This document shows, piece by piece, positions 14,942 to 27,682 of a stretch of 45,217 bases of DNA. The position numbers were made by a program, and so were the translations under genes. Positions within the stretch are counted from its first letter, which is position 1; each line of letters starts with the position of its first letter. The notes beneath the pieces are model-generated. The model saw nothing but the letters and a program-made list of their open reading frames with translations, had not been told where the DNA came from and did no database searches. The stretch spans positions 1 through 45,217 of the forward strand of contig SLLE01000026.1 in NCBI GenBank assembly GCA_007134225.1. Direction: 5' to 3'. Origin of the DNA: Tindallia sp. (lineage in GTDB: Bacteria > Bacillota > Clostridia > Peptostreptococcales > Tindalliaceae).

Positions 14942-16240
<1,299 letters not shown>

Positions 16241-16254
16241 TCATTTCTATAATT

Positions 16255-17790
16255 TTATGATTCTAAAAGAGATTTACCGGTCATTTCCTCCGGTTTTTCC
16301 AATTTCAGCATCTCCAATAGTGTGGGCGCCAGGTCGCATAACTTTCCATTCTCTTTAAGTTTTGTATGCTCCATCCCTGCCAGAATTAAGGGAACCGGAT
16401 TGGTTGTATGAGCTGTTACAGTTTTACCAGTGGTTTCATCTTCCAGCTCTTCCGAGTTACCATGATCCGAAGTTATCAAGAGTGCGCCGTTTTGCTCCAG
16501 GACTTTTGAAACGATTTTCCCAAGGCATTCGTCAACGGTTTCCAGTGCTTTTACAACTGCTCCCATCACACCGGTATGGCCTACCATGTCCGGATTGGCA
16601 AAGTTCAGGACAATCAAATCCAGGTCTTTTTTTTCCATTCGGCTCAACAGAGCCTCAGTCACCTCCGGCGCGCTCATTTCTGGTTGTAAATCATAGGTCG
16701 CCACTTTGGAAGAAGGAATTAGAATCCGTTCTTCTCCCTCATACGGCTCTTCCACGCCACCGTTTAAGAAATAAGTGACGTGCGCATATTTTTCTGTTTC
16801 CGCAATGCGAAGCTGTTTCTTCTTCGCTTTTGATAGAGTCTCTCCCAGCGTATTAACAAGACTTTGAGGTACAAACGCAACCTTTGGACCAGCAATCGTC
16901 TGGTCATACTGAGTCATGGTGACATAATAAAGAGGCATACAACCTTTTGGCCTTTTAAAAAATGCAAATTCTTCATCCATCAGGGCTCTTGTCATCTGAC
17001 GTGCCCGGTCCGGACGAAAGTTGAAAAAGATCACAGCATCATCAGCGTTAATCCGGTATTTCTGCTCTTCTGTTCCTTTGATAACCGTGGGCTTTACAAA
17101 TTCGTCGTTTTTTCCCTGATGGTAGGACTGCTTAATGGCATCCACAGCTGAATCTGCCATCAAAGCTTCTCCGTTAACCATGGCTTTGTACGCCAGCTCG
17201 GTCCGTTCCCATCGTTTATCTCTGTCCATGGCATAGTACCTTCCCGAGATAGTGGCAATTTCGCCTGTCTTTAACGCGCTCATTTTCGATTCCAGAGACT
17301 TAATGTATTCAACGGCGCTTTGTGGCGGTGTATCCCTGCCATCTAAAAAACAATGAACCGCTACTTGTTTAATTTCATATTTTTGCGCCATTTCCAGAAG
17401 TGCATAAAGATGTTCCAGATGACTGTGCACACCCCCATCAGACACTAGTCCCATTAGATGAAGTGTTTTACTCTTATCGTATGCATGCTTCATGGCTCCC
17501 GCTAAAACATCGTTTTTAAAAAAGCTGCCGTCTTTAATGGACTGACTGATGCGTGTTAATTCCTGGTAAACGACACGTCCTGCTCCTATGTTTAAATGGC
17601 CCACTTCTGAGTTTCCCATTTGGCCATCCGGCAAACCGACAGCAAGTCCACTGGCCTGAAGTTGTGTTCTTGGGTTTTCTGCCATAAGTTGTTGAAAAAC
17701 CGGCATGTTTGCTGCTTTAACTGCATTTCCTTTTGTGTTCTTTCCGATTCCTAATCCATCCAGAATCAATAATACGACAGGTTTTTTCAT
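16255..17790 (-). CDS. gpmI: 2,3-bisphosphoglycerate-independent phosphoglycerate mutase
   Basis: Mn-dependent enzyme interconverting 3- and 2-phosphoglycerate, 511 aa. It belongs to the alkaline-phosphatase superfamily: metal ligand Asp11 in LILDGLGIG, catalytic Ser61 in MGNSEVGHLNIGAGR, SDGGVHSHLEHL, and the C-terminal metal-binding segments NPDMVGHTG and TSDHGNSEEL. GGAAGG lies upstream of the ATG. It is placed between tpiA (33-nt gap) and eno (26-nt gap), the usual order of the lower glycolytic operon in Firmicutes. Confidence 0.97.
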   Translation of the reverse strand: MKKPVVLLILDGLGIGKNTKGNAVKAANMPVFQQLMAENPRTQLQASGLAVGLPDGQMGNSEVGHLNIGAGRVVYQELTRISQSIKDGSFFKNDVLAGAMKHAYDKSKTLHLMGLVSDGGVHSHLEHLYALLEMAQKYEIKQVAVHCFLDGRDTPPQSAVEYIKSLESKMSALKTGEIATISGRYYAMDRDKRWERTELAYKAMVNGEALMADSAVDAIKQSYHQGKNDEFVKPTVIKGTEEQKYRINADDAVIFFNFRPDRARQMTRALMDEEFAFFKRPKGCMPLYYVTMTQYDQTIAGPKVAFVPQSLVNTLGETLSKAKKKQLRIAETEKYAHVTYFLNGGVEEPYEGEERILIPSSKVATYDLQPEMSAPEVTEALLSRMEKKDLDLIVLNFANPDMVGHTGVMGAVVKALETVDECLGKIVSKVLEQNGALLITSDHGNSEELEDETTGKTVTAHTTNPVPLILAGMEHTKLKENGKLCDLAPTLLEMLKLEKPEEMTGKSLLES

Positions 17791-17822
17791 AAAAGTTCTT
17801 CCTTCCTGATGCTGTAACCTCT

Positions 17823-18569
17823 TTAAAAGTTGATAATACCAATAAAATCCTCGGCTTTGAGACTGGCACCACCAACCAATGCCCCGTCAATATCTTCCGA
17901 TTCCATAATTTCCGTTGTATTTTCCGGTTTTACGCTGCCACCATAAAGAATTCTGATCTGTTCGGAAATAGTGTCTCCATATTTTGAACTTAGCCATTTT
18001 CTTATTAACCCAATGGCTTCTGCCGCCTGATCCGGTGTTGCTGTTTTACCTGTTCCAATTGCCCAAATCGGTTCGTAGGCGACCACCATCTTTGCTGCTT
18101 CTTCCGGAGTAACAGTTTCCGTATTCTTTTGCAGCTGTGTTTCAAGAACTTCATTCATCCGTTCTGCTTCACGTTCTTCAAGGGTTTCACCAATGCAAAG
18201 AATTGGTGTCAGTAGCTTTTGAAAGGCTTTTTTCAACTTCATATGAATCTGATCGTCCGTCTCTCCAAAAATCTGGCGACGTTCGGAGTGTCCCAAAATA
18301 ACGTAAGAGACGCCAGCTTCCTTCAGCATATCCGCTGATATTTCCCCTGTAAAAGCACCAGAATCTTCCCAATGCATATTTTGAGCTCCAAGTTTTATGT
18401 CCGTATGCTTCAGCGCATCATGGATGCTATGCAGTAGTGTTGCCGGACAGCACACGGCCACCTCTACATCTGTATCGCCCATCCCTTCTGAGATGGCTTC
18501 TACCAATTTAATACCCGATTGACACGTCATATTCATTTTCCAATTCCCTGCAATGAATGGAATTCTCAT
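17823..18569 (-). CDS. tpiA: Triosephosphate isomerase
   Basis: TIM-barrel enzyme interconverting dihydroxyacetone phosphate and glyceraldehyde 3-phosphate. Catalytic residues are Lys11 (GNWKMN), His94 (LGHSERR) and Glu166 (VAYEPIWAIGTG); the phosphate-binding GGSVKPEN and VGGASL segments are present. The start is ATG at 18569 (248 aa), six bases after AAAGGAG; the frame extends 9 codons further up without a better site. The 41-nt gap to pgk contains no terminator. Confidence 0.97.
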   Translation of the reverse strand: MRIPFIAGNWKMNMTCQSGIKLVEAISEGMGDTDVEVAVCCPATLLHSIHDALKHTDIKLGAQNMHWEDSGAFTGEISADMLKEAGVSYVILGHSERRQIFGETDDQIHMKLKKAFQKLLTPILCIGETLEEREAERMNEVLETQLQKNTETVTPEEAAKMVVAYEPIWAIGTGKTATPDQAAEAIGLIRKWLSSKYGDTISEQIRILYGGSVKPENTTEIMESEDIDGALVGGASLKAEDFIGIINF

Positions 18570-18610
18570 AAAATGCTCCTTTCCAGATGGTTTCATTTCT
18601 GATCCCGAAG

Positions 18611-19810
18611 TTATTTTTCAGGAATTGCGTCAATGCCTGGCAGCACTTTTCCTTCCAGAAACTCAAGTGAAGCACCCCCACCGGTGGATATATGTGTCAT
18701 GTCTTTGGCAAAGCCCATTTCTTCAACGGCAGCAGCGCTGTCTCCTCCTCCCACGATGGTGATGGCTTTGCATTTAGACATGGCTTTCGCTACTGCTTTT
18801 GTGCCTTCTGCAAAGATATCAATTTCAAAAACACCCATCGGTCCATTCCAGATTACAGTTCTGGCATTCATGATTCTTTCCTCAAAAAGACCAATGGTTT
18901 TGGGTCCAATATCAACGCCAATGCCATTTTCCGGCATGCGATGGATTTCCGCTATTTCATAGCGGGCTTTCTCCGATACATCGCTGGCAGAAACCACATC
19001 CACCGGCAAAATAAAGGCAACACCTTTTTCTTCTGCTTTATGAATAAGTTCTCTTGCCATTTCAATCTTATCTTCCTCCAGCAGTGACTGACCAATTTCG
19101 AAGCCTTCTGCCCTTAAAAAGGTAAAGGCCATGCCCCCTCCAATTAATAGAACGTCCACTTTATCAATCAGGTTTTCAATCACGCCGATTTTATCGGAAA
19201 CTTTGGCTCCTCCAAGGATCGCCACAAAAGGTTTTTCTGGATTTTCAAGGGCTTTTCCCATGATATCGATTTCTTTTTCAATGAGAAAACCCATGGCGGC
19301 CGGCAGAAATTCCGCCAGTCCCGTTGTGGAGCAATGAGCTCGATGAGCTGTGCCGAAAGCATCGTTAACATAAGCAGTTCCAAGCTCAGCCAGCTCTTTG
19401 CTAAAGGATGCTTCGTTTTTTTCTTCTTCTTTGCGGAATCGAAGGTTTTGAAGCAGCATTATTTCTCCCGGCTTTAAATCCGCAGCCATCTGCTTTGCTT
19501 TTTTCCCAGTCACCACATCATCATCAGCGAAATGAACTGTTCGCTTCAGCAGTTCTTCTATTCTTTTCGCCACTGGTGCCAATGTTAATTCCGGTTTTGC
19601 TTCTCCTTTCGGTCTCCCCAGATGAGACATTAGAATCAATGAGGCATTCGCCTTCAATAGATGTTCGATCGTTGGCAAAGATGCCCTAATCCTGCTGTCA
19701 TCCGTAATGTTCCCGGATTTATCCATGGGCACATTAAAATCACAGCGCACCAGAACTTTTTCACCTTCCAGTTTCATGTCTTTCATTCTTCTTTTACTTA
19801 AAATTGTCAT
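18611..19810 (-). CDS. pgk: Phosphoglycerate kinase
   Basis: ATP-forming glycolytic kinase acting on 1,3-bisphosphoglycerate, 399 aa. [11 protein letters not shown] near residues 20-30 is the family signature; [33 protein letters not shown] and the C-terminal [13 protein letters not shown] and [13 protein letters not shown] segments are all intact. GGAGGG precedes the ATG at 19810. It is the first gene of the operon; glyceraldehyde-3-phosphate dehydrogenase, usually the preceding gene, is not in the window, its place being taken by rpoN on the same strand. Confidence 0.97.
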
Positions 19811-19861
19811 GCCATCCCTCCTTCTTCAGGTTTAAAATCAATTTAGCGTTTCTCCGGTTGC

Positions 19862-19901
19862 CTTATAGCATTTTGATAGTGATAAACCCATCAAAATTGA
19901 T
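19862..19901 (-). promoter_or_regulatory. Possible pgk promoter and operator-like dyad
   Basis: The minus strand has TGCTATAAG, an extended -10 (TATAAG at 19862-19867), about 50 nt before pgk, but no good -35 (TGGGTT at 17 nt). A perfect 12-nt palindrome ATCAAAATTGAT (19890-19901) lies just upstream and could bind a regulator. The rest of the 260-nt rpoN-pgk gap holds only the rpoN terminator. Confidence 0.4.
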
Positions 19902-19998
19902 ACCCAAAGTTTGGTTTTTTATGAACAATATTTTATTTCCAATGGAAATAGAATCCAATATCACTGCACTTCTGTTTTGCGTTATGATATCTACAAAA

Positions 19999-20030
19999 AA
20001 GAACAGATGCACATTCTGTACCCTGTTCTT
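19999..20030 (-). terminator. Intrinsic terminator after rpoN
   Basis: Stem AAGAACAG / CTGTTCTT with a 16-nt loop that can pair internally, followed on the minus strand by a run of T. It lies 41 nt after the rpoN stop codon, so the pgk operon needs its own promoter. Confidence 0.85.
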
Positions 20031-20070
20031 AGCATAAGCTAAAAGATGCTTTCTCTTCAACTCGGAAGGT

Positions 20071-21447
20071 TTAGTAGCGTTTTCTTTTGGATGATGAAGG
20101 AATTTTCATGTCCTCCCGATATTTAGCTACGGTCCGTCTGGAAATTTTGATGCCTTTTGCTGCCAACTCCGTGGTAATTCGATCATCACTCATTGGTTTT
20201 TTAGGGTTTTCATCATCTAAAATTTCACGAATATAATTTTTAATGCTTTCTGACGCCAGCCCGTCGCCGGTATCATCAGAGACACCGCTGGAGAAAAAAT
20301 ATTTCAGCTCAAAGGTGCCGGCCGGAGTTTCCACATACTTTCCATTGGTAGCACGGCTAACAGTGGATTCATGAACATCAATTTCATCGGCAATTTCTTT
20401 CAGCGTCATTGGTTTCAAATGCTTTTTTCCATATTCGAAGAAACAGCGCTGTTTTTCCACTACCTGTTCCACCACTTTATAGATTGTCTGCATCCGTTGT
20501 TCGATGCTCTTAATAAGCCACATGGCATTGTTAAATTTATCATTCAAAAACTTAACGGCTTCATCGTTTTCATCTCCGCTGGAGAGCATTTTTTTATAGT
20601 CTTTACGGATGGTTAATCGAGGAGTGTTTCGTTCATTCGGTAGAATGTAATAATCATTGCCAATTTTCTTCACAACCACATCCGGCACTACATAACGATT
20701 GTCAATACTGGCATATTTCCTTCCCGGTTTCGGTTCAAGGGTTTTTAAAAAATCACAAATATCCTGCACCTGTTCTGTTGAAATATTTAAATTCCTGGCG
20801 ATAGCAGGATATTTATTGCTGGCAATTTCATCCAGGTAAGATTCAATAATGGCATAAACGTTTTCATTTTCAACTCCCAGGTGACGGCATTGAATCACCA
20901 GACATTCACTCAAGTCACGTGCAGCGACACCATGTGGATCAAAGGTTTGGATAATACCCAAAACACTCTCCACCGCACTGATTTCCTGGTGAAGGTGTTC
21001 TGCAATTTCATTGACAGGAACCCGTAAATACCCGTTATCGTCCAGGCTGTCAATAATGTATTCACCGATTTCATGAAATTCCGCTTCCAGGTAAGTCAGA
21101 TTAAACTGAAATAATAAATGATCCTGCAGGGTAGGGTTTTGAAAAATAATATTCTCATAGTTGAAATCATTGTCACTGTTATGATGAAAAGCTTCTTTGC
21201 AGTATTCGTAGTTATCAAAGTCTTCCGCATACTCTTTCCAGTCAACCTTCTGTTCTTCCACCGGTTCCTCTTTGACTTTTTTATCTTCTTCACTGATTTC
21301 AATCATAGGATTGTTTTCAATTTGCTGTTCAATGTACTCTTCAAGCTCCAACGAGGTGAATTGCAATATCTTAATGGCTTGGCGGAGCTGGGGCGTCATA
21401 ACCAATTTTTGGGTTTGTTCCAAGTTAAGATTAAAGCCCATTTCCAT
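20071..21447 (-). CDS. rpoN: RNA polymerase sigma-54 factor
   Basis: Alternative sigma factor that recognises -24/-12 promoters and needs AAA+ activators. Region I is Gln/Leu-rich (LNLEQTQKLVMTPQLRQAIK), followed by the acidic region II, the core-binding domain, a helix-turn-helix (TLKEIADEIDVHESTVSRA) and the RpoN box near the C-terminus, here SRRTVAKYRE. The end is basic (SSSKRKRY). ATG at 21447 is 8 nt from AGGAGG and is preferred to the ATG two codons earlier. An extended -10 promoter lies 60 nt upstream. No sigma-54 activator gene is in the window, so its targets cannot be named; amino-acid fermentation genes are a reasonable guess for this type of organism. Confidence 0.96.
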   Translation of the reverse strand: MEMGFNLNLEQTQKLVMTPQLRQAIKILQFTSLELEEYIEQQIENNPMIEISEEDKKVKEEPVEEQKVDWKEYAEDFDNYEYCKEAFHHNSDNDFNYENIIFQNPTLQDHLLFQFNLTYLEAEFHEIGEYIIDSLDDNGYLRVPVNEIAEHLHQEISAVESVLGIIQTFDPHGVAARDLSECLVIQCRHLGVENENVYAIIESYLDEIASNKYPAIARNLNISTEQVQDICDFLKTLEPKPGRKYASIDNRYVVPDVVVKKIGNDYYILPNERNTPRLTIRKDYKKMLSSGDENDEAVKFLNDKFNNAMWLIKSIEQRMQTIYKVVEQVVEKQRCFFEYGKKHLKPMTLKEIADEIDVHESTVSRATNGKYVETPAGTFELKYFFSSGVSDDTGDGLASESIKNYIREILDDENPKKPMSDDRITTELAAKGIKISRRTVAKYREDMKIPSSSKRKRY

Positions 21448-21506
21448 ATTCATCGCCTCCTGATTGAACCATACGAGCTAATTTCTGCTGTTATTCTATC
21501 AGGGAT

Positions 21507-21535
21507 ATTATACCATTATTTAATACAATCTTAAA
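21507..21535 (-). promoter_or_regulatory. Sigma-A promoter of rpoN (extended -10)
   Basis: On the minus strand: TGGTATAAT, an extended consensus -10 (TATAAT at 21507-21512), with a poor -35 TTTAAG (21530-21535) at 17 nt. Located about 60 nt before the rpoN start. Confidence 0.65.
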
Positions 21536-21561
21536 GAGAAAAACAAAACCTATCGCTTATT

Positions 21562-21577
21562 TGGCATATTTTTTGCA
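21562..21577 (+). promoter_or_regulatory. Sigma-54-like -24/-12 element, antisense to grdD
   Basis: The plus strand reads TTGGCATATTTTTTGCA. GG at 21563-21564 and GC at 21575-21576 are exactly 12 nt apart as in the TGGCACG-N4-TTGCA consensus; only two consensus bases differ. Transcription would begin near 21588 and run rightwards, antisense into the 3' end of grdD. It stands between the divergent-looking but co-oriented minus-strand genes rpoN and grdD. A chance match is possible in this AT-rich gap. Confidence 0.4.
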
Positions 21578-21590
21578 TGATAAGAATGTG

Positions 21591-22775
21591 TTAACATTCT
21601 TTTTCTTCATAAACCAAATAACCGGATTGCTTTAATTTTTCAATTCCTAATTCCAAGTTATGTTCGCTTACCAAAAGCACCGGCCCTGTGCAACCCATAC
21701 CGCTTTCGGCATAAATTCCGTTTTTCCATAAGGTCTGCATAGCATATTCCACGTCCATGATGTCGATTCCAGTAATGCCGTGTGTTACTGGTTCCCCCAG
21801 TGGCGTTATCACTGATGCTTCTTTTTTACCGTCATTCTTCTCCATATGCATTTGATCCAGAATCTCTGTTAATCCAGCACTTCTCGCACTTTGAAATTCT
21901 CTCTTCGCGACCGAAATCAGATCTCCCCGCACCAGCTGTGCCGCAAACCGGATCGCATTTTCCACCACTTGTTCTCCGGAGGCTCTTGAAATGACCATGG
22001 CAATACGTTCATAAAACTCTCCAATGCCTGGTCCATATCCGGCCCCAATGGTTTCTACGTTTCCACCGCTCATAAAGGAGGCACACATTTTCATTGTAAT
22101 GTTGCCGGTAAGTGAATCCTGAACCAACACGTCCGGAGTACCGGCAATAATATCATTTCCTCTCATGATGCAACCGGAATCTGGTCTCATGGATTTCGCA
22201 AAACAGATAGAATACCCTCGGTCATTTATTTGCATCAACGCTTTTTCCACCTGTCTGGCACTTTCCACATTCAAAATTCCAACCTTTGGCTTTTCGTTCC
22301 CCATGGCTTTCGCAACGATAATTCCATACAAAGCGTTAAGCGTCATAGCAGGTCCTCGATTAATGGCAGAGGTACCTGATGTCGTCGCCAGATACATCTG
22401 TTTTCCCTTTCCCATCGTGGTCATTTTGCCAACAGAAGCAACACCTATAGGATATGCATAGTGGGTAGTGATGCACGCATCAATGATTCCATGATCCAGC
22501 ATGGTCTCCATTTTTTTATGAGCCTGCTCCTCACTGGGTGCTTCAAACTGAAGCAATCCGGTATTTTGTTTTGGACCAATCAGTACCACCTCAAAATCAC
22601 AGCTTTGAGCCGTCGAATTTTCAGCAGCTCTAACCCAGTGTTCAATACCAGTTTCACAGCCATGTGTTGTTAGTCCAATTTTAATTTTCCCGGATTTTTT
22701 ACCCGTCTCCAGCATTTCTGCCATCTCTTCAAAGAGATGGCCCATTATGTTGCGAGCATATTTTTGATTGGCCAT
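21591..22775 (-). CDS. grdD: Glycine reductase complex component C, alpha subunit GrdD
   Basis: PlsX-like subunit of protein C, which receives a carboxymethyl/acetyl group from selenoprotein A and releases acetyl phosphate. 394 aa. The C-terminal segment SGMGCTGPVLL carries Cys362, corresponding to the active-site thiol reported near position 359 in Eubacterium acidaminophilum GrdD. Other family stretches are GLTTHGCETGIEHWVRAAE and SGTSAINRGPAMTLNALYG. It follows grdC by 11 nt. An 8-bp hairpin AAGAATGT / ACATTCTT spans the stop codon. Selenoproteins GrdA and GrdB, and GrdE, are not in the window and must be encoded elsewhere if the pathway is complete. Confidence 0.95.
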   Translation of the reverse strand: MANQKYARNIMGHLFEEMAEMLETGKKSGKIKIGLTTHGCETGIEHWVRAAENSTAQSCDFEVVLIGPKQNTGLLQFEAPSEEQAHKKMETMLDHGIIDACITTHYAYPIGVASVGKMTTMGKGKQMYLATTSGTSAINRGPAMTLNALYGIIVAKAMGNEKPKVGILNVESARQVEKALMQINDRGYSICFAKSMRPDSGCIMRGNDIIAGTPDVLVQDSLTGNITMKMCASFMSGGNVETIGAGYGPGIGEFYERIAMVISRASGEQVVENAIRFAAQLVRGDLISVAKREFQSARSAGLTEILDQMHMEKNDGKKEASVITPLGEPVTHGITGIDIMDVEYAMQTLWKNGIYAESGMGCTGPVLLVSEHNLELGIEKLKQSGYLVYEEKEC

Positions 22776-22786
22776 TGATTTACACC

Positions 22787-24346
22787 TCAGTATTCATTCG
22801 TCTCTTCTTCCAATAATTCTTCAGCAATCTTTTTCATCATCATCGCCATCATTTTTCGGATTTCCTCTTCTGACACTTTCTGATCACGATGGTCTTCCAC
22901 TTCGCCTTTGTTTTTTTCCAGTATAAAAGAAACTCCGTCAAACTGATTCGTAAGCCTGGCCAGAAAAAGACTTCCTTTTCCTACAATCATAGCCCTAACG
23001 ATTTCACCATTTAAAATGGCTTTGTGAGCGTGTCCGATATATGGAATTCCGGAAGGTATATGGCCTTGCGTGGGTGCCCACCCTGGAAATCCATATTTTT
23101 CACCAAAGGTGGCCACTTCCTTCTGATTCAGTTCTTCTCTTTTAACCCCCAGGGCTGCAATCATTTTATAATTAGCCTCCGGCACGTCGCCTGCTCCTGC
23201 CGGCCGGGTAATATCCGGATTCTGCATTTCCACGGAATAGCGGTCAATGTCTTTCAGCTTAAGGCCACCTTTATCCAAGGGTGCTGTGATTAAAGAAGTG
23301 ATAACCGCTTGTGGGGATGAGCCGGTTGATACGGTATGTTTTCCCGTAAGATCTGTACGAATGATGGGATTCACACCATCATTTTCACCGATTAAAACAG
23401 CAAATCCAGCCACCATATCCTCCAAAACCGGCACGCCGCGGCGAATATGTTCTTTGGCATTCATTGCCAGCTTTGCGGAAGTTCCGCCGGCCACAACCAA
23501 CACATTGCGATGAATACCGGCCTGCACAAGTGCCGATGCTTCCAAAATGGCATGTACCGGTGCGGCGCAGAATGCCCGTGTGTCAGACCCGGAAGCGTTA
23601 ATAGCTCCTATGCCTTCCGCAATTGCTTTTGCAAAATTACCGCCACCCCGTTGATTCATATCACCGGCTGCGCTTTCAGAGCATTCAATGACATAATCGA
23701 TTTCCGCCACATCAATTTGATTGCGATCCAGCAGGTTCCATGCCGTTAACATGCCGGAGGCTTTCGTTACCATGTTTTCAAATAACACTTCGGCGGTCAG
23801 ATTAGGGTCAAATTCATGACCACGTTTTACACATCCTATTATTTGATCATTAAAAATCAAAGGCATGGCTTTCATGTTTTTAATGTGGTATTCAATGTTT
23901 TCCTCCGCTTCGCCTTCCTTTAAGCGACGAAGTTTTGTTTCGTTAAAAAGTGGATGTTGCATCAATTTCTTCCTGATCTTTGTCACAAATTCTTTTTCCA
24001 ATCGAATTAAATCAAAAACATCCGCCATTTTCAGAACGCCGATAAACTCATCCTGGCTCATAATTTCTCCATAAGCACCAAAGCGGTCGGCATTATCTGC
24101 CGGTTTGTCATACCAGGGTAACTCGTAATGCCGTAAATCTTCCGGAGGCATTTCTCCAATGTAAACCTGATGAGGCATATATTCAACTACTTCTTGAAAA
24201 CTCCTTAATGATTTTGGCAATTCATTTAAAAATGCCGACTTTGTATCCAATCTTTTTTCCAGGGTAGCAAACACACTGTTATGCCTCACAAAATCCGGCA
24301 CATGGACCAGCGTATATCCTTCACCACGGATGACTGCATATCTCAC
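22787..24346 (-). CDS. grdC: Glycine reductase complex component C, beta subunit GrdC
   Basis: Thiolase/FabH-like subunit of protein C of glycine reductase, 519 aa from GTG at 24344-24346, which stands six bases after GGGAGGT. The N-terminus RYAVIRGEGYTLVHVPDFV matches the family. Cys260 in SDTRAFCAAPVHA resembles the acyl-binding cysteine of ketoacyl synthases and is followed by NVLVVAGGTSAKLAMNAKEH. The C-terminal ~40 residues are charged (EDHRDQKVSEEE... region). It starts 4 nt after the degV stop and precedes grdD, so translation is probably coupled. Finding trmL and degV upstream, rather than trxA/grdE/grdA/grdB, is unusual. Confidence 0.95.
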   Translation of the reverse strand: MRYAVIRGEGYTLVHVPDFVRHNSVFATLEKRLDTKSAFLNELPKSLRSFQEVVEYMPHQVYIGEMPPEDLRHYELPWYDKPADNADRFGAYGEIMSQDEFIGVLKMADVFDLIRLEKEFVTKIRKKLMQHPLFNETKLRRLKEGEAEENIEYHIKNMKAMPLIFNDQIIGCVKRGHEFDPNLTAEVLFENMVTKASGMLTAWNLLDRNQIDVAEIDYVIECSESAAGDMNQRGGGNFAKAIAEGIGAINASGSDTRAFCAAPVHAILEASALVQAGIHRNVLVVAGGTSAKLAMNAKEHIRRGVPVLEDMVAGFAVLIGENDGVNPIIRTDLTGKHTVSTGSSPQAVITSLITAPLDKGGLKLKDIDRYSVEMQNPDITRPAGAGDVPEANYKMIAALGVKREELNQKEVATFGEKYGFPGWAPTQGHIPSGIPYIGHAHKAILNGEIVRAMIVGKGSLFLARLTNQFDGVSFILEKNKGEVEDHRDQKVSEEEIRKMMAMMMKKIAEELLEEETNEY

Positions 24347-24350
24347 GTGA

Positions 24351-25247
24351 TTACCTCCCACTTTGATTTATCTTCAGATCGCCTTCATAAACAGGATTCT
24401 TAGCTTCAGTCGAATAAAACATTGCCAGCGTTCCCGGGCCGGTATGTGTCCCAATGGTGCATCCGATTTCCGATATCAGGATTTCAGCTGGCTTTAGTTC
24501 TTTTTTGACTTTCGAATACAGTTCCTCTGCTCTCTCAGGTGCATCTGCATGAGAAATACCAACGGTTTTATCAGAAAAGTTTCCGCTTCGGAACACTGCC
24601 AGTTCCAGCATTTTATCCATGACTCTTTTTGAGCCGCGCACTTTATCCAATGGATCGACCAAACCATCCTTCAGGGTTAATATTGGTTTAATATTCAAAA
24701 GATTCGCCACTAATGCCTTTCCAGGATTGATGCGTCCTCCTTTTTGAAGAAACTCCACCGTATCCACCGTAAAAAGATGGTCAACCCTGGGTGCTGATTT
24801 TTCAAGGGCTTTTACAATAGTTTGGCGTTCGTGCCCTTGTTCTGCCATCCTCACTGCTTTCAATACCGACAAACCAGCACCAAAGGACAGGCTCATGGTA
24901 TCAATCACACTGATTCGCTCCGCATCCACGTCATTGCAGGCAATAACTGCCGACTGATGAGTACCGCTTGCCTTAGACGAAGCGGTAATGCATATGATTT
25001 CATAATCTTCCTTAATGTATTTTTGAAATGCATTAGCGAAGTCGCCAGGAGAAATCTGGGAAGTGCGCGGTAAAACTTCACTGCGCTTTAATTTTTCATA
25101 AAAAGCTCTGTTTGATAAATCGATACCATCCCGATATTCCTGATCTCCAAAAATAATCGTTAATGGTAATACTTCGATCCCATACTGATTAATTTGTTTC
25201 TGAGGCAAATCCGTCATGCTATCGGTTACAATTTTGATCTTTCTCAT
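24351..25247 (-). CDS. DegV family fatty-acid-binding protein (copy 1)
   Basis: 298-aa DegV/FakB-type protein: binds a fatty acid in a pocket between two domains and, in studied cases, presents it to the kinase FakA. Typical features are KIVTDSMTDLPQ at the N-terminus, RTSQISPGDF, ITASSKASGTHQSA, DTVEFLQKGGRI and the C-terminal GCTIGTHTGPGTLAMFY. GGAGGT precedes the ATG at 25247. It lies between trmL (15-nt gap) and grdC (4-nt gap). The last codons share a 21-nt exact match with sequence beside the structured repeat at 25849-25869. No FakA gene is present in the window. Confidence 0.92.
   Translation of the reverse strand: MRKIKIVTDSMTDLPQKQINQYGIEVLPLTIIFGDQEYRDGIDLSNRAFYEKLKRSEVLPRTSQISPGDFANAFQKYIKEDYEIICITASSKASGTHQSAVIACNDVDAERISVIDTMSLSFGAGLSVLKAVRMAEQGHERQTIVKALEKSAPRVDHLFTVDTVEFLQKGGRINPGKALVANLLNIKPILTLKDGLVDPLDKVRGSKRVMDKMLELAVFRSGNFSDKTVGISHADAPERAEELYSKVKKELKPAEILISEIGCTIGTHTGPGTLAMFYSTEAKNPVYEGDLKINQSGR
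24389..24409. repeat. 21-nt exact match to 25849-25869 (inside degV)
   Basis: The 3' part of degV contains 21 bases identical, in the same orientation, to the outer edge of the structured repeat at 25860. Ten of them belong to the repeat end (CTTAGCTTCAG side) and eleven to its flank. By chance such a match within 45 kb is very unlikely. Confidence 0.8.
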
Positions 25248-26833: not shown

Positions 26834-27682
26834 ATGAACAGCATACGAATTATGACAGACAGCACAAGTGACTTGCCTGAAAGTGAATTGTTACAACGTG
26901 ATATTAACGTTGTTCCTTTATATGTTCATTTTGACCAGGAAGTATTTCGAGATAGTATAGACATAGATCCGAAGATGCTTTATGAAAAGGTTCAGCAAAC
27001 AGATGTTTACCCAAAAACATCCAGTCCTTCTCCCAAGGATTTCATCGATTATTTTAAACCGGTTATCGATTCGGGTCAGAATATTCTCTATATCGGTCTT
27101 TCTTCTCAACTATCATCTACCATTCAGAATGCTAGAATTGCCGCTTCAGAGTTTCCGGATCACAGGATTGAAGTCATTGATTCTCTGAATTTATCTGCCG
27201 GGATCGGGATGTTGGTTTTGGAGGCTTCCGATCTTGCCATTCAGGGAAAAAGTTTGGAAGAAATCACCGAAACCATCCATGCAATGGTACCGAAAGTTAA
27301 AACCTACTTTGCCTTAGATACACTACAATACCTGCATAAAGGTGGTCGTTGTACATCGCTTGAGAACATTGTCGGAAACATGCTTCGTATTCGTCCCATC
27401 CTTAATGTGGCGAATGGAAAAATTATCTTACAGAAAAAAGTGAGGGGCAAACGGGAGAAATTGGTGGAAGAGATGATGAACTTAACAGAAAAGGAACTTA
27501 AACCCATTGATACCAATCGGGTGATCGTTAATCACTCCTTTTGTCCGGAAATCGCAGAACGTCTTCGGGAGCATTTGAAAAAAACCCTTGAACCAAAGGA
27601 AGTAATGATGACAGAGGCCGGTTGTGTTGTCTCCTGTCACTGCGGTCCCAACACCTTCAGCATCGTTTATCGCACAAAATAG
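26834..27682 (+). CDS. DegV family fatty-acid-binding protein (copy 2)
   Basis: 282-aa DegV/FakB-type lipid-binding protein with RIMTDSTSDLPESE, KTSSPSPKDF, IGLSSQLSSTIQNA, DTLQYLHKGGRC and C-terminal GCVVSCHCGPNTFSIVY. It has the same architecture as the degV gene at 24351-25247, but clear sequence divergence, so the two may bind different acyl chains. GGGGAGGG precedes the ATG. Its last 26 nt overlap the end of cobD on the other strand, and its probable terminator lies inside cobD. Confidence 0.92.
   Translation: MNSIRIMTDSTSDLPESELLQRDINVVPLYVHFDQEVFRDSIDIDPKMLYEKVQQTDVYPKTSSPSPKDFIDYFKPVIDSGQNILYIGLSSQLSSTIQNARIAASEFPDHRIEVIDSLNLSAGIGMLVLEASDLAIQGKSLEEITETIHAMVPKVKTYFALDTLQYLHKGGRCTSLENIVGNMLRIRPILNVANGKIILQKKVRGKREKLVEEMMNLTEKELKPIDTNRVIVNHSFCPEIAERLREHLKKTLEPKEVMMTEAGCVVSCHCGPNTFSIVYRTK

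Follow-up and report, generated by a model that had tools for sequence, protein, structure and literature searches.

The window, a 45,217-nt stretch of DNA that makes up an entire contig (C187) of a genome from the order Peptostreptococcales, contains a sigma-54-type (-24/-12) element, TTGGCATATTTTTTGCA (21561–21577, plus strand), which lies next to the sigma-54 gene, rpoN, and points away from it. On balance, we favor the reading that this element is a predicted site for RNA polymerase-sigma-54 (E-sigma54) that serves rpoN itself and tunes its transcription. To our knowledge, few bacteria have had the control of their sigma-54 levels resolved. A nearly fixed outward site near the rpoN promoter would provide a testable control point in a clostridial clade that includes amino-acid fermenters.

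An outward-facing -24/-12 element between grdD and rpoN

The element separates two co-directional genes on the minus strand: rpoN (20071–21453; TIGR02395, 473.7 bits), the gene with which it travels, and the neighboring grdD (21591–22775; NF040747, 492.8 bits), which encodes glycine/sarcosine/betaine reductase component C alpha. Beyond grdD lies grdC, encoding component C beta (22787–24361, minus strand; NF040746, 744.5 bits). On the plus strand, GG at 21563–21564 and GC at 21575–21576 set a GG-N10-GC register in which TTGGCATATTTTTTGCA fits the TTGGCAYR-N4-TTGCW consensus at 13/13 positions. This geometry predicts a sigma-54 start at about 21588 (plus strand), 12 nt past the C of GC and 3 nt ahead of the grdD stop codon (21591–21593, complement). 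The initial annotation had described a sigma-54-type element with GG and GC at the 12-nt distance on the plus strand, adjoining rpoN and directed into grdD, and its register, orientation, and place are all borne out.

Within the 45 kb, the 13/13 match occurs once, alongside six 11-of-13 matches; a loose form of the motif is found 3 times versus 3.41 expected, a chance level that is not surprising from sequence alone. Across the 2.35-Mb genome, the strict 16-mer motif TGGCAYRNNNNTTGCW has 14 occurrences, compared to 0 for the reversed control. When a scoring matrix is derived from the 13 remaining strict sites, leaving the window site out, the latter scores 20.9, within the 19.2–22.7 spanned by the 13 (99th and 99.9th percentiles of shuffled 250-bp regions, 9.8 and 15.7). 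It is conservation, and not sequence alone, that puts the element beyond chance. Presence in similar gaps had been set as a test, and the element is found in the grdD-rpoN gap of 6/6 sampled family relatives. In an alignment of seven f1 genomes, 13 of the 17 element columns are invariant versus 24 of 120 in the remaining gap (23/107 on the rpoN side and 1/13 on the grdD side), and the four variable columns are those that are free or half-free in the sigma-54 consensus. By these sequence comparisons, the -24/-12 element in the window is confirmed as genuine.

Elsewhere in the genome, all 13 remaining strict sites are followed by a co-directional ORF (at least 50 codons) beginning 40–242 nt downstream, including one (L004) whose 16-mer is identical to that of the window and whose sense ORF is 108 nt away. 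Seven of these 13 sites lie within approximately 1.3 kb of a Sigma54_activat domain, a family with 19 matches in the genome, 15 of them strong. No co-directional gene is found downstream of the rpoN-side site in the window, where the neighbor is convergent, and the PF00158 profile detects no activator (EBP) gene on the 45-kb contig of this 96.5% complete genome. The rpoN-side site is therefore the exception among the 14 strict sites, with neither a sense gene nor an activator gene on its contig.

We note several other features nearby, where gene names outside the Pfam and NCBIfam matches were assigned by eye. A hairpin scan finds a weak inverted repeat with 7-nt arms over the grdD stop (21583–21600); by the same criteria, none is present in 5/6 family relatives, and the sixth (G006) has a different weak one. 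The start of rpoN may be the second ATG (21447) rather than the first (21453), given its better AGGAGG spacing. The rpoN-pgk gap contains a possible operator, an inverted repeat whose arms, AAGAACAG / CTGTTCTT, are 16 nt apart (19999–20030). Upstream of grdC, two DegV/FakB-like proteins are encoded on opposite strands (24351–25247 and 26834–27682).

The element follows rpoN and not grdD

To sample rpoN across the order, we took 118 genomes, of which 112 had a match and 110 provided upstream regions that were read; G050 and G060 were omitted because the gene start was not covered, and for G083 and G105 the upstream sequence extended only 184 bp and 471 bp, respectively. Matches within 400 bp of rpoN were counted over 13 scored positions, with GG and GC obligatory. 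At least 12 of the 13 positions matched in 31/110 regions, 26 of them at 13/13, and all 31 sites face away from rpoN. In 100 dinucleotide shuffles of all regions, matches at 12/13 averaged 0.34 and never exceeded 2, and none occurred at 13.

At the 12/13 level, the outward site is present in 7/7 f1, 16/17 f3, 4/4 f6, 2/3 f7, and 2/10 f9 genomes, and no outward site with at least 12/13 is found in the sampled genomes of f2, f4, f5, f8, f10, f11, and f12. Lowering the threshold to 11/13 adds 2/3 f8 genomes and 1/15 from f11 (G038). The G038 element, 159 bp off, appears by eye to be coding sequence and was dropped, leaving 33 carriers. At the matrix threshold, 35/110 regions have a site facing away from rpoN, including two f11 regions outside the 33. 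Among 21 genomes of the class from outside the order, none has an outward site at 12/13 or better, and one has an 11/13 match at 371 bp; in three of the 21, the rpoN match starts at residue 22 or later, such that the upstream region is partly coding. Because the outward site is absent at 12/13 in many families and in these 21 genomes, it is not needed for rpoN generally.

In an RpoN tree of 70 of the 110 genes, f1, f3, f6, and f7 form one clade (support 100/99) in which 29/31 rows have the outward site. This clade holds 29 of the 33 carriers counted at 11/13. One of its two exceptions, G112, seems to have retained the -12 half of the element with the -24 half broken. The f8 and f9 carriers fall elsewhere in the tree and may represent separate gains.

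The gene past the site varies over the 33 carriers and includes grdD, a BPD_transp_2 (ABC) permease, an alpha-amylase, a pyridine-nucleotide oxidoreductase, and Hsp33 (Pfam was run on the neighbor frames of 8 of the 33, and the G063 frame had no match). In 31/33 carriers, the longest frame beyond the site is convergent, the exceptions being G023 and G013. Among the carriers, Pfam confirms a sense gene in G023 (L085) alone, where a frame for a YjjI-like glycyl radical enzyme opens approximately 272 nt downstream. Where grdD lies beside rpoN in another family (L022 and L040), the element is present in both cases, and it is found at none of the 21 grdD loci fetched from other genomes in which grdD is not beside rpoN (L023–L039 and L041–L044). 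These comparisons point to an element linked to rpoN irrespective of its other neighbors.

The element lies back-to-back with the rpoN promoter

An extended -10 (TGGTATAAT; 21507–21515, minus strand) indicates a sigma-A promoter for rpoN, 48 bp from the element, and the six columns of its hexamer are invariant in the seven-genome alignment. The promoter scan provides a weak candidate -35, TTAAGA (21529–21534, minus strand), with a spacer of 16. As the scan performs no better than shuffles (2 promoter-like sites found versus a mean of 1.7), the promoter call rests on conservation and place. In the window, the predicted sigma-54 start and the predicted sigma-A start of rpoN are approximately 88 bp apart.

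We compared the spacing in every carrier from f1, f3, f6, f7, and f8, a set of 31. The -10 is TG-extended in all of them, with TATAAT in 30 and TACAAT in 1, and the distance from the element to the -10 is 46–49 bp in 20 carriers and 35–39 bp in 11. The two f9 carriers, in which TTGGTATATTTTTTGCT points away from rpoN at no fixed distance from a -10, are counted among the 33 but are weak. The position of the element relative to the rpoN promoter is constrained in 31/33 carriers, as for an autoregulatory site, and, at the sequence level, an outward sigma-54 site and a vegetative promoter stand back-to-back. We also considered helical phasing between the two spacing classes; they differ by approximately 8 bp, which is not a full turn, and we make no claim of phasing.

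We searched whole genomes with a composite pattern consisting of an outward site, 34–52 bp, and TGnTATAAT. The 118 genomes gave 27 matches, one per genome, with 0 in the controls, and by coordinates all 27 lie immediately upstream of rpoN. This pattern is stricter than the carrier list, recovering 27/33 and missing G023, G030, two f8, and two f9 carriers. Across 393 genomes of the order, the earlier 118 included, there were 33 matches in 32 genomes and again 0 in the controls: 30 before rpoN (27 by coordinates and 3 by tblastn) and 3 ahead of genes encoding a Sigma54_activat domain (119–235 bits). These three genes are divergent from a sense gene, namely POR, an HMGL-like gene, and a transporter-like frame under the Pfam cut-off. 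A search of 391 genomes of the class gave a single match outside the order, before a Sigma54_activat gene (215.9 bits) whose divergent neighbor is an aconitase-X gene.

Across the genomes searched, sigma-54-system genes are thus the only ones with this layout, and the rpoN cases lack a target gene. In the four activator-gene cases (L242, L247, L248, and L249), the sense neighbor is on the sigma-54 side. Because activator genes are commonly divergent from their targets, the spacing in these four cases may be chance.

Some elements face rpoN. They are found in 10/110 genomes at 11/13 (7 f10, 2 f12, and 1 f3) and in 14/110 at the matrix threshold (1 f3, 2 f4, 8 f10, 1 f11, and 2 f12). In 7/13 f10 genomes (regions L098, L099, L105, L107, L109, L110, and L111), ATGGTATAATWWTTGCA faces rpoN and is laid over the sigma-A -10 box; it is a weaker -24/-12 element, scoring 15.4 compared to null 99th and 99.9th percentiles of 9.8 and 15.7. 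If real, the f10 element would give E-sigma54 a second route to touch its own promoter, possibly by direct competition. Outside the order, 12/13 matches face rpoN in 2/21 genomes (L158 in G146 and L162 in G136), 61 and 80 bp upstream, and sense autoregulation of rpoN is possible in these two.

A predicted role for E-sigma54 beside its own gene

We infer that E-sigma54 would bind and occupy the element as a stable closed complex and that no functional transcript arises there. Such a closed complex cannot melt DNA without an activator. Bound E-sigma54 and the sigma-A polymerase that serves rpoN would stand back-to-back, and the upstream edge of E-sigma54 would reach the zone of the alpha-subunit C-terminal domains of the sigma-A polymerase. 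With starts about 88 bp apart, the alpha-domain zones would overlap, and little space would be left between the core footprints. The core footprints would not clearly overlap, and hence simple occlusion is not assured.

Occupancy of the element would report free E-sigma54 back to rpoN. A negative sign, amounting to sigma-54 homeostasis, is most likely by analogy, because the published hints for rpoN/sigL have that sign. Downstream of rpoN, pgk, tpi, gpmI, and eno follow on the same strand (14942–20071), and no terminator-like site was found in the rpoN-pgk gap of the window; therefore, feedback on rpoN could extend to these glycolytic genes. More broadly, we hypothesize that a promoter has been preserved over many genera as an operator, that closed E-sigma54 is the regulator with its own gene as sole target, and that the layout of activator gene and target has been cut to its sensing half at rpoN. 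We advance this broader version tentatively, rating it somewhat below an even chance.

The main alternative has the opposite sign: E-sigma54, whether bound or firing outward, would stimulate the divergent sigma-A promoter of rpoN through contacts, alpha-domain sharing, or supercoiling. The back-to-back, non-overlapping layout would suit stimulation, and four activator genes with a divergent sense gene share it. In a divergent, non-overlapping pair described elsewhere, the effect was reportedly stimulation and not repression. However, positive feedback is a less usual design for a global sigma factor. The hints for rpoN/sigL in two papers are also negative (PMC3538637; PMC6510779), and we consider stimulation unlikely.

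The initial annotation proposed that a sigma-54-dependent antisense RNA starts at the grdD stop and balances the glycine reductase C component. The geometry stands, with the predicted start 3 nt before the stop; the proposed role in grdD regulation is not supported. The absence of a terminator-like hairpin in the sigma-54 direction in 5/7 family genomes, and its weakness in the other 2, would leave room for antisense or convergent transcription to reduce grdD/grdC. Consistent with such an effect, the grd operon rises 8–60-fold in a C. difficile sigL mutant, for which the accessible text gives no antisense mechanism or promoter (PMC7438776). However, the element persists beside the permease, amylase, oxidoreductase, and Hsp33 neighbors, and 21/21 fetched grdD loci away from rpoN lack it. 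Terminator-like hairpins close to the predicted start in 12/33 carriers, the window among them with a weak one, also weigh against an antisense role. Moreover, the region that would be transcribed is neither conserved (1/13 invariant columns between the element and the grdD stop) nor structured: over its first 61 nt, the predicted RNA is no more structured than shuffled sequence, and the 8 Rfam matches within 21000–23000 are all under their gathering scores. No activator gene was found on the contig. As the element follows rpoN and has no sense ORF, unlike the other 13 sites of the genome, the antisense reading appears weak from these comparisons; we rejected it as the main reading and regard it as quite improbable.

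Two further alternatives are, in our estimation, very unlikely. In the first, a very short sigma-54-dependent RNA (~30–45 nt) would end at a two-way terminator of the neighboring gene. A terminator-like hairpin in the sigma-54 direction starts near the predicted start in 12/33 carriers, the weak one of the window included, but by the same criteria it is missing in the other 21, its sequence varies between genera, and a terminator after an upstream gene is ordinary. In the second, E-sigma54 would act as a roadblock or insulator against read-through from the upstream gene into rpoN. The window could accommodate this, as our scan detected no terminator-like site between grdD and rpoN. However, in 13/33 carriers a terminator-like hairpin oriented in the rpoN direction also lies close to the site, a study of intragenic sites in E. 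coli reports no such effect (PMC4591121), and a roadblock would not explain why the site keeps a fixed distance from the rpoN -10.

There is almost no probability that the element is a chance motif or a piece of the U-tract of an upstream terminator: although three f6 genomes and G030 have the -12 half overlapping the terminator stem and T-run of the neighbor, conservation of the -24 half is just as high in f1 genomes, which retain the motif where no terminator is found, and the 31 sites observed versus 0.34 in shuffles and 0 in reversed-pattern controls refute chance for the clade as a whole.

Comparison with known systems

The idea that rpoN is under feedback control is not new. The mostly open-access literature that we searched yielded no account of a sigma-54 site facing outward from rpoN or of such a layout without a target gene, and the main text of a clostridial regulon paper mentions neither rpoN, autoregulation, nor glycine reductase (PMC6615313). 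The element shares its sequence, TTGGCAYR-N4-TTGCW, with the canonical sigma-54 promoters of amino-acid fermenting clostridia; unlike them, it has no downstream sense gene and no activator gene on its contig. For C. difficile, the published consensus reads TGGCA-N6-[A,T]TGCT[A,T] (PMC7438776).

The idea that sigma-54 feeds back on its own gene is shared with autoregulation described for rpoN/sigL. Negative feedback of sigma-54 on its own gene in R. leguminosarum is cited in one paper (PMC3538637). A C. beijerinckii mutant in the DNA-binding HTH of sigma-54 has higher sigL expression, which the authors link to possible feedback (PMC6510779); this lineage is outside the rpoN upstream regions that we examined. 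For Clostridia and other classes, a 2025 survey took the enrichment of sigma-54 promoters before rpoN as a sign of autoregulation (PMC12316311). Its MAST scan omitted the reverse complement (-norc), and therefore, as we read it, outward sites would be missed. The window site faces away from rpoN and cannot transcribe it. Surveys limited to the sense strand are blind to sites at which the closed polymerase itself may regulate.

The dmpR Po/Pr type likewise places an outward sigma-54 site beside the vegetative promoter of a gene of the sigma-54 system; there, the sigma-54 side drives an operon, whereas at rpoN no target is visible. The proposed tuning of rpoN also has a counterpart in E. coli, where E-sigma54 represses some sigma-70 promoters by binding competition, with a 10–60% reduction at four promoters tested in vitro (PMC4551910). 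In both cases, E-sigma54 would serve as a DNA-bound regulator of another promoter. The E. coli motifs, as described there, overlap the sigma-70 footprint (classes I and II), whereas the element described here lies 35–49 bp upstream of the rpoN -10.
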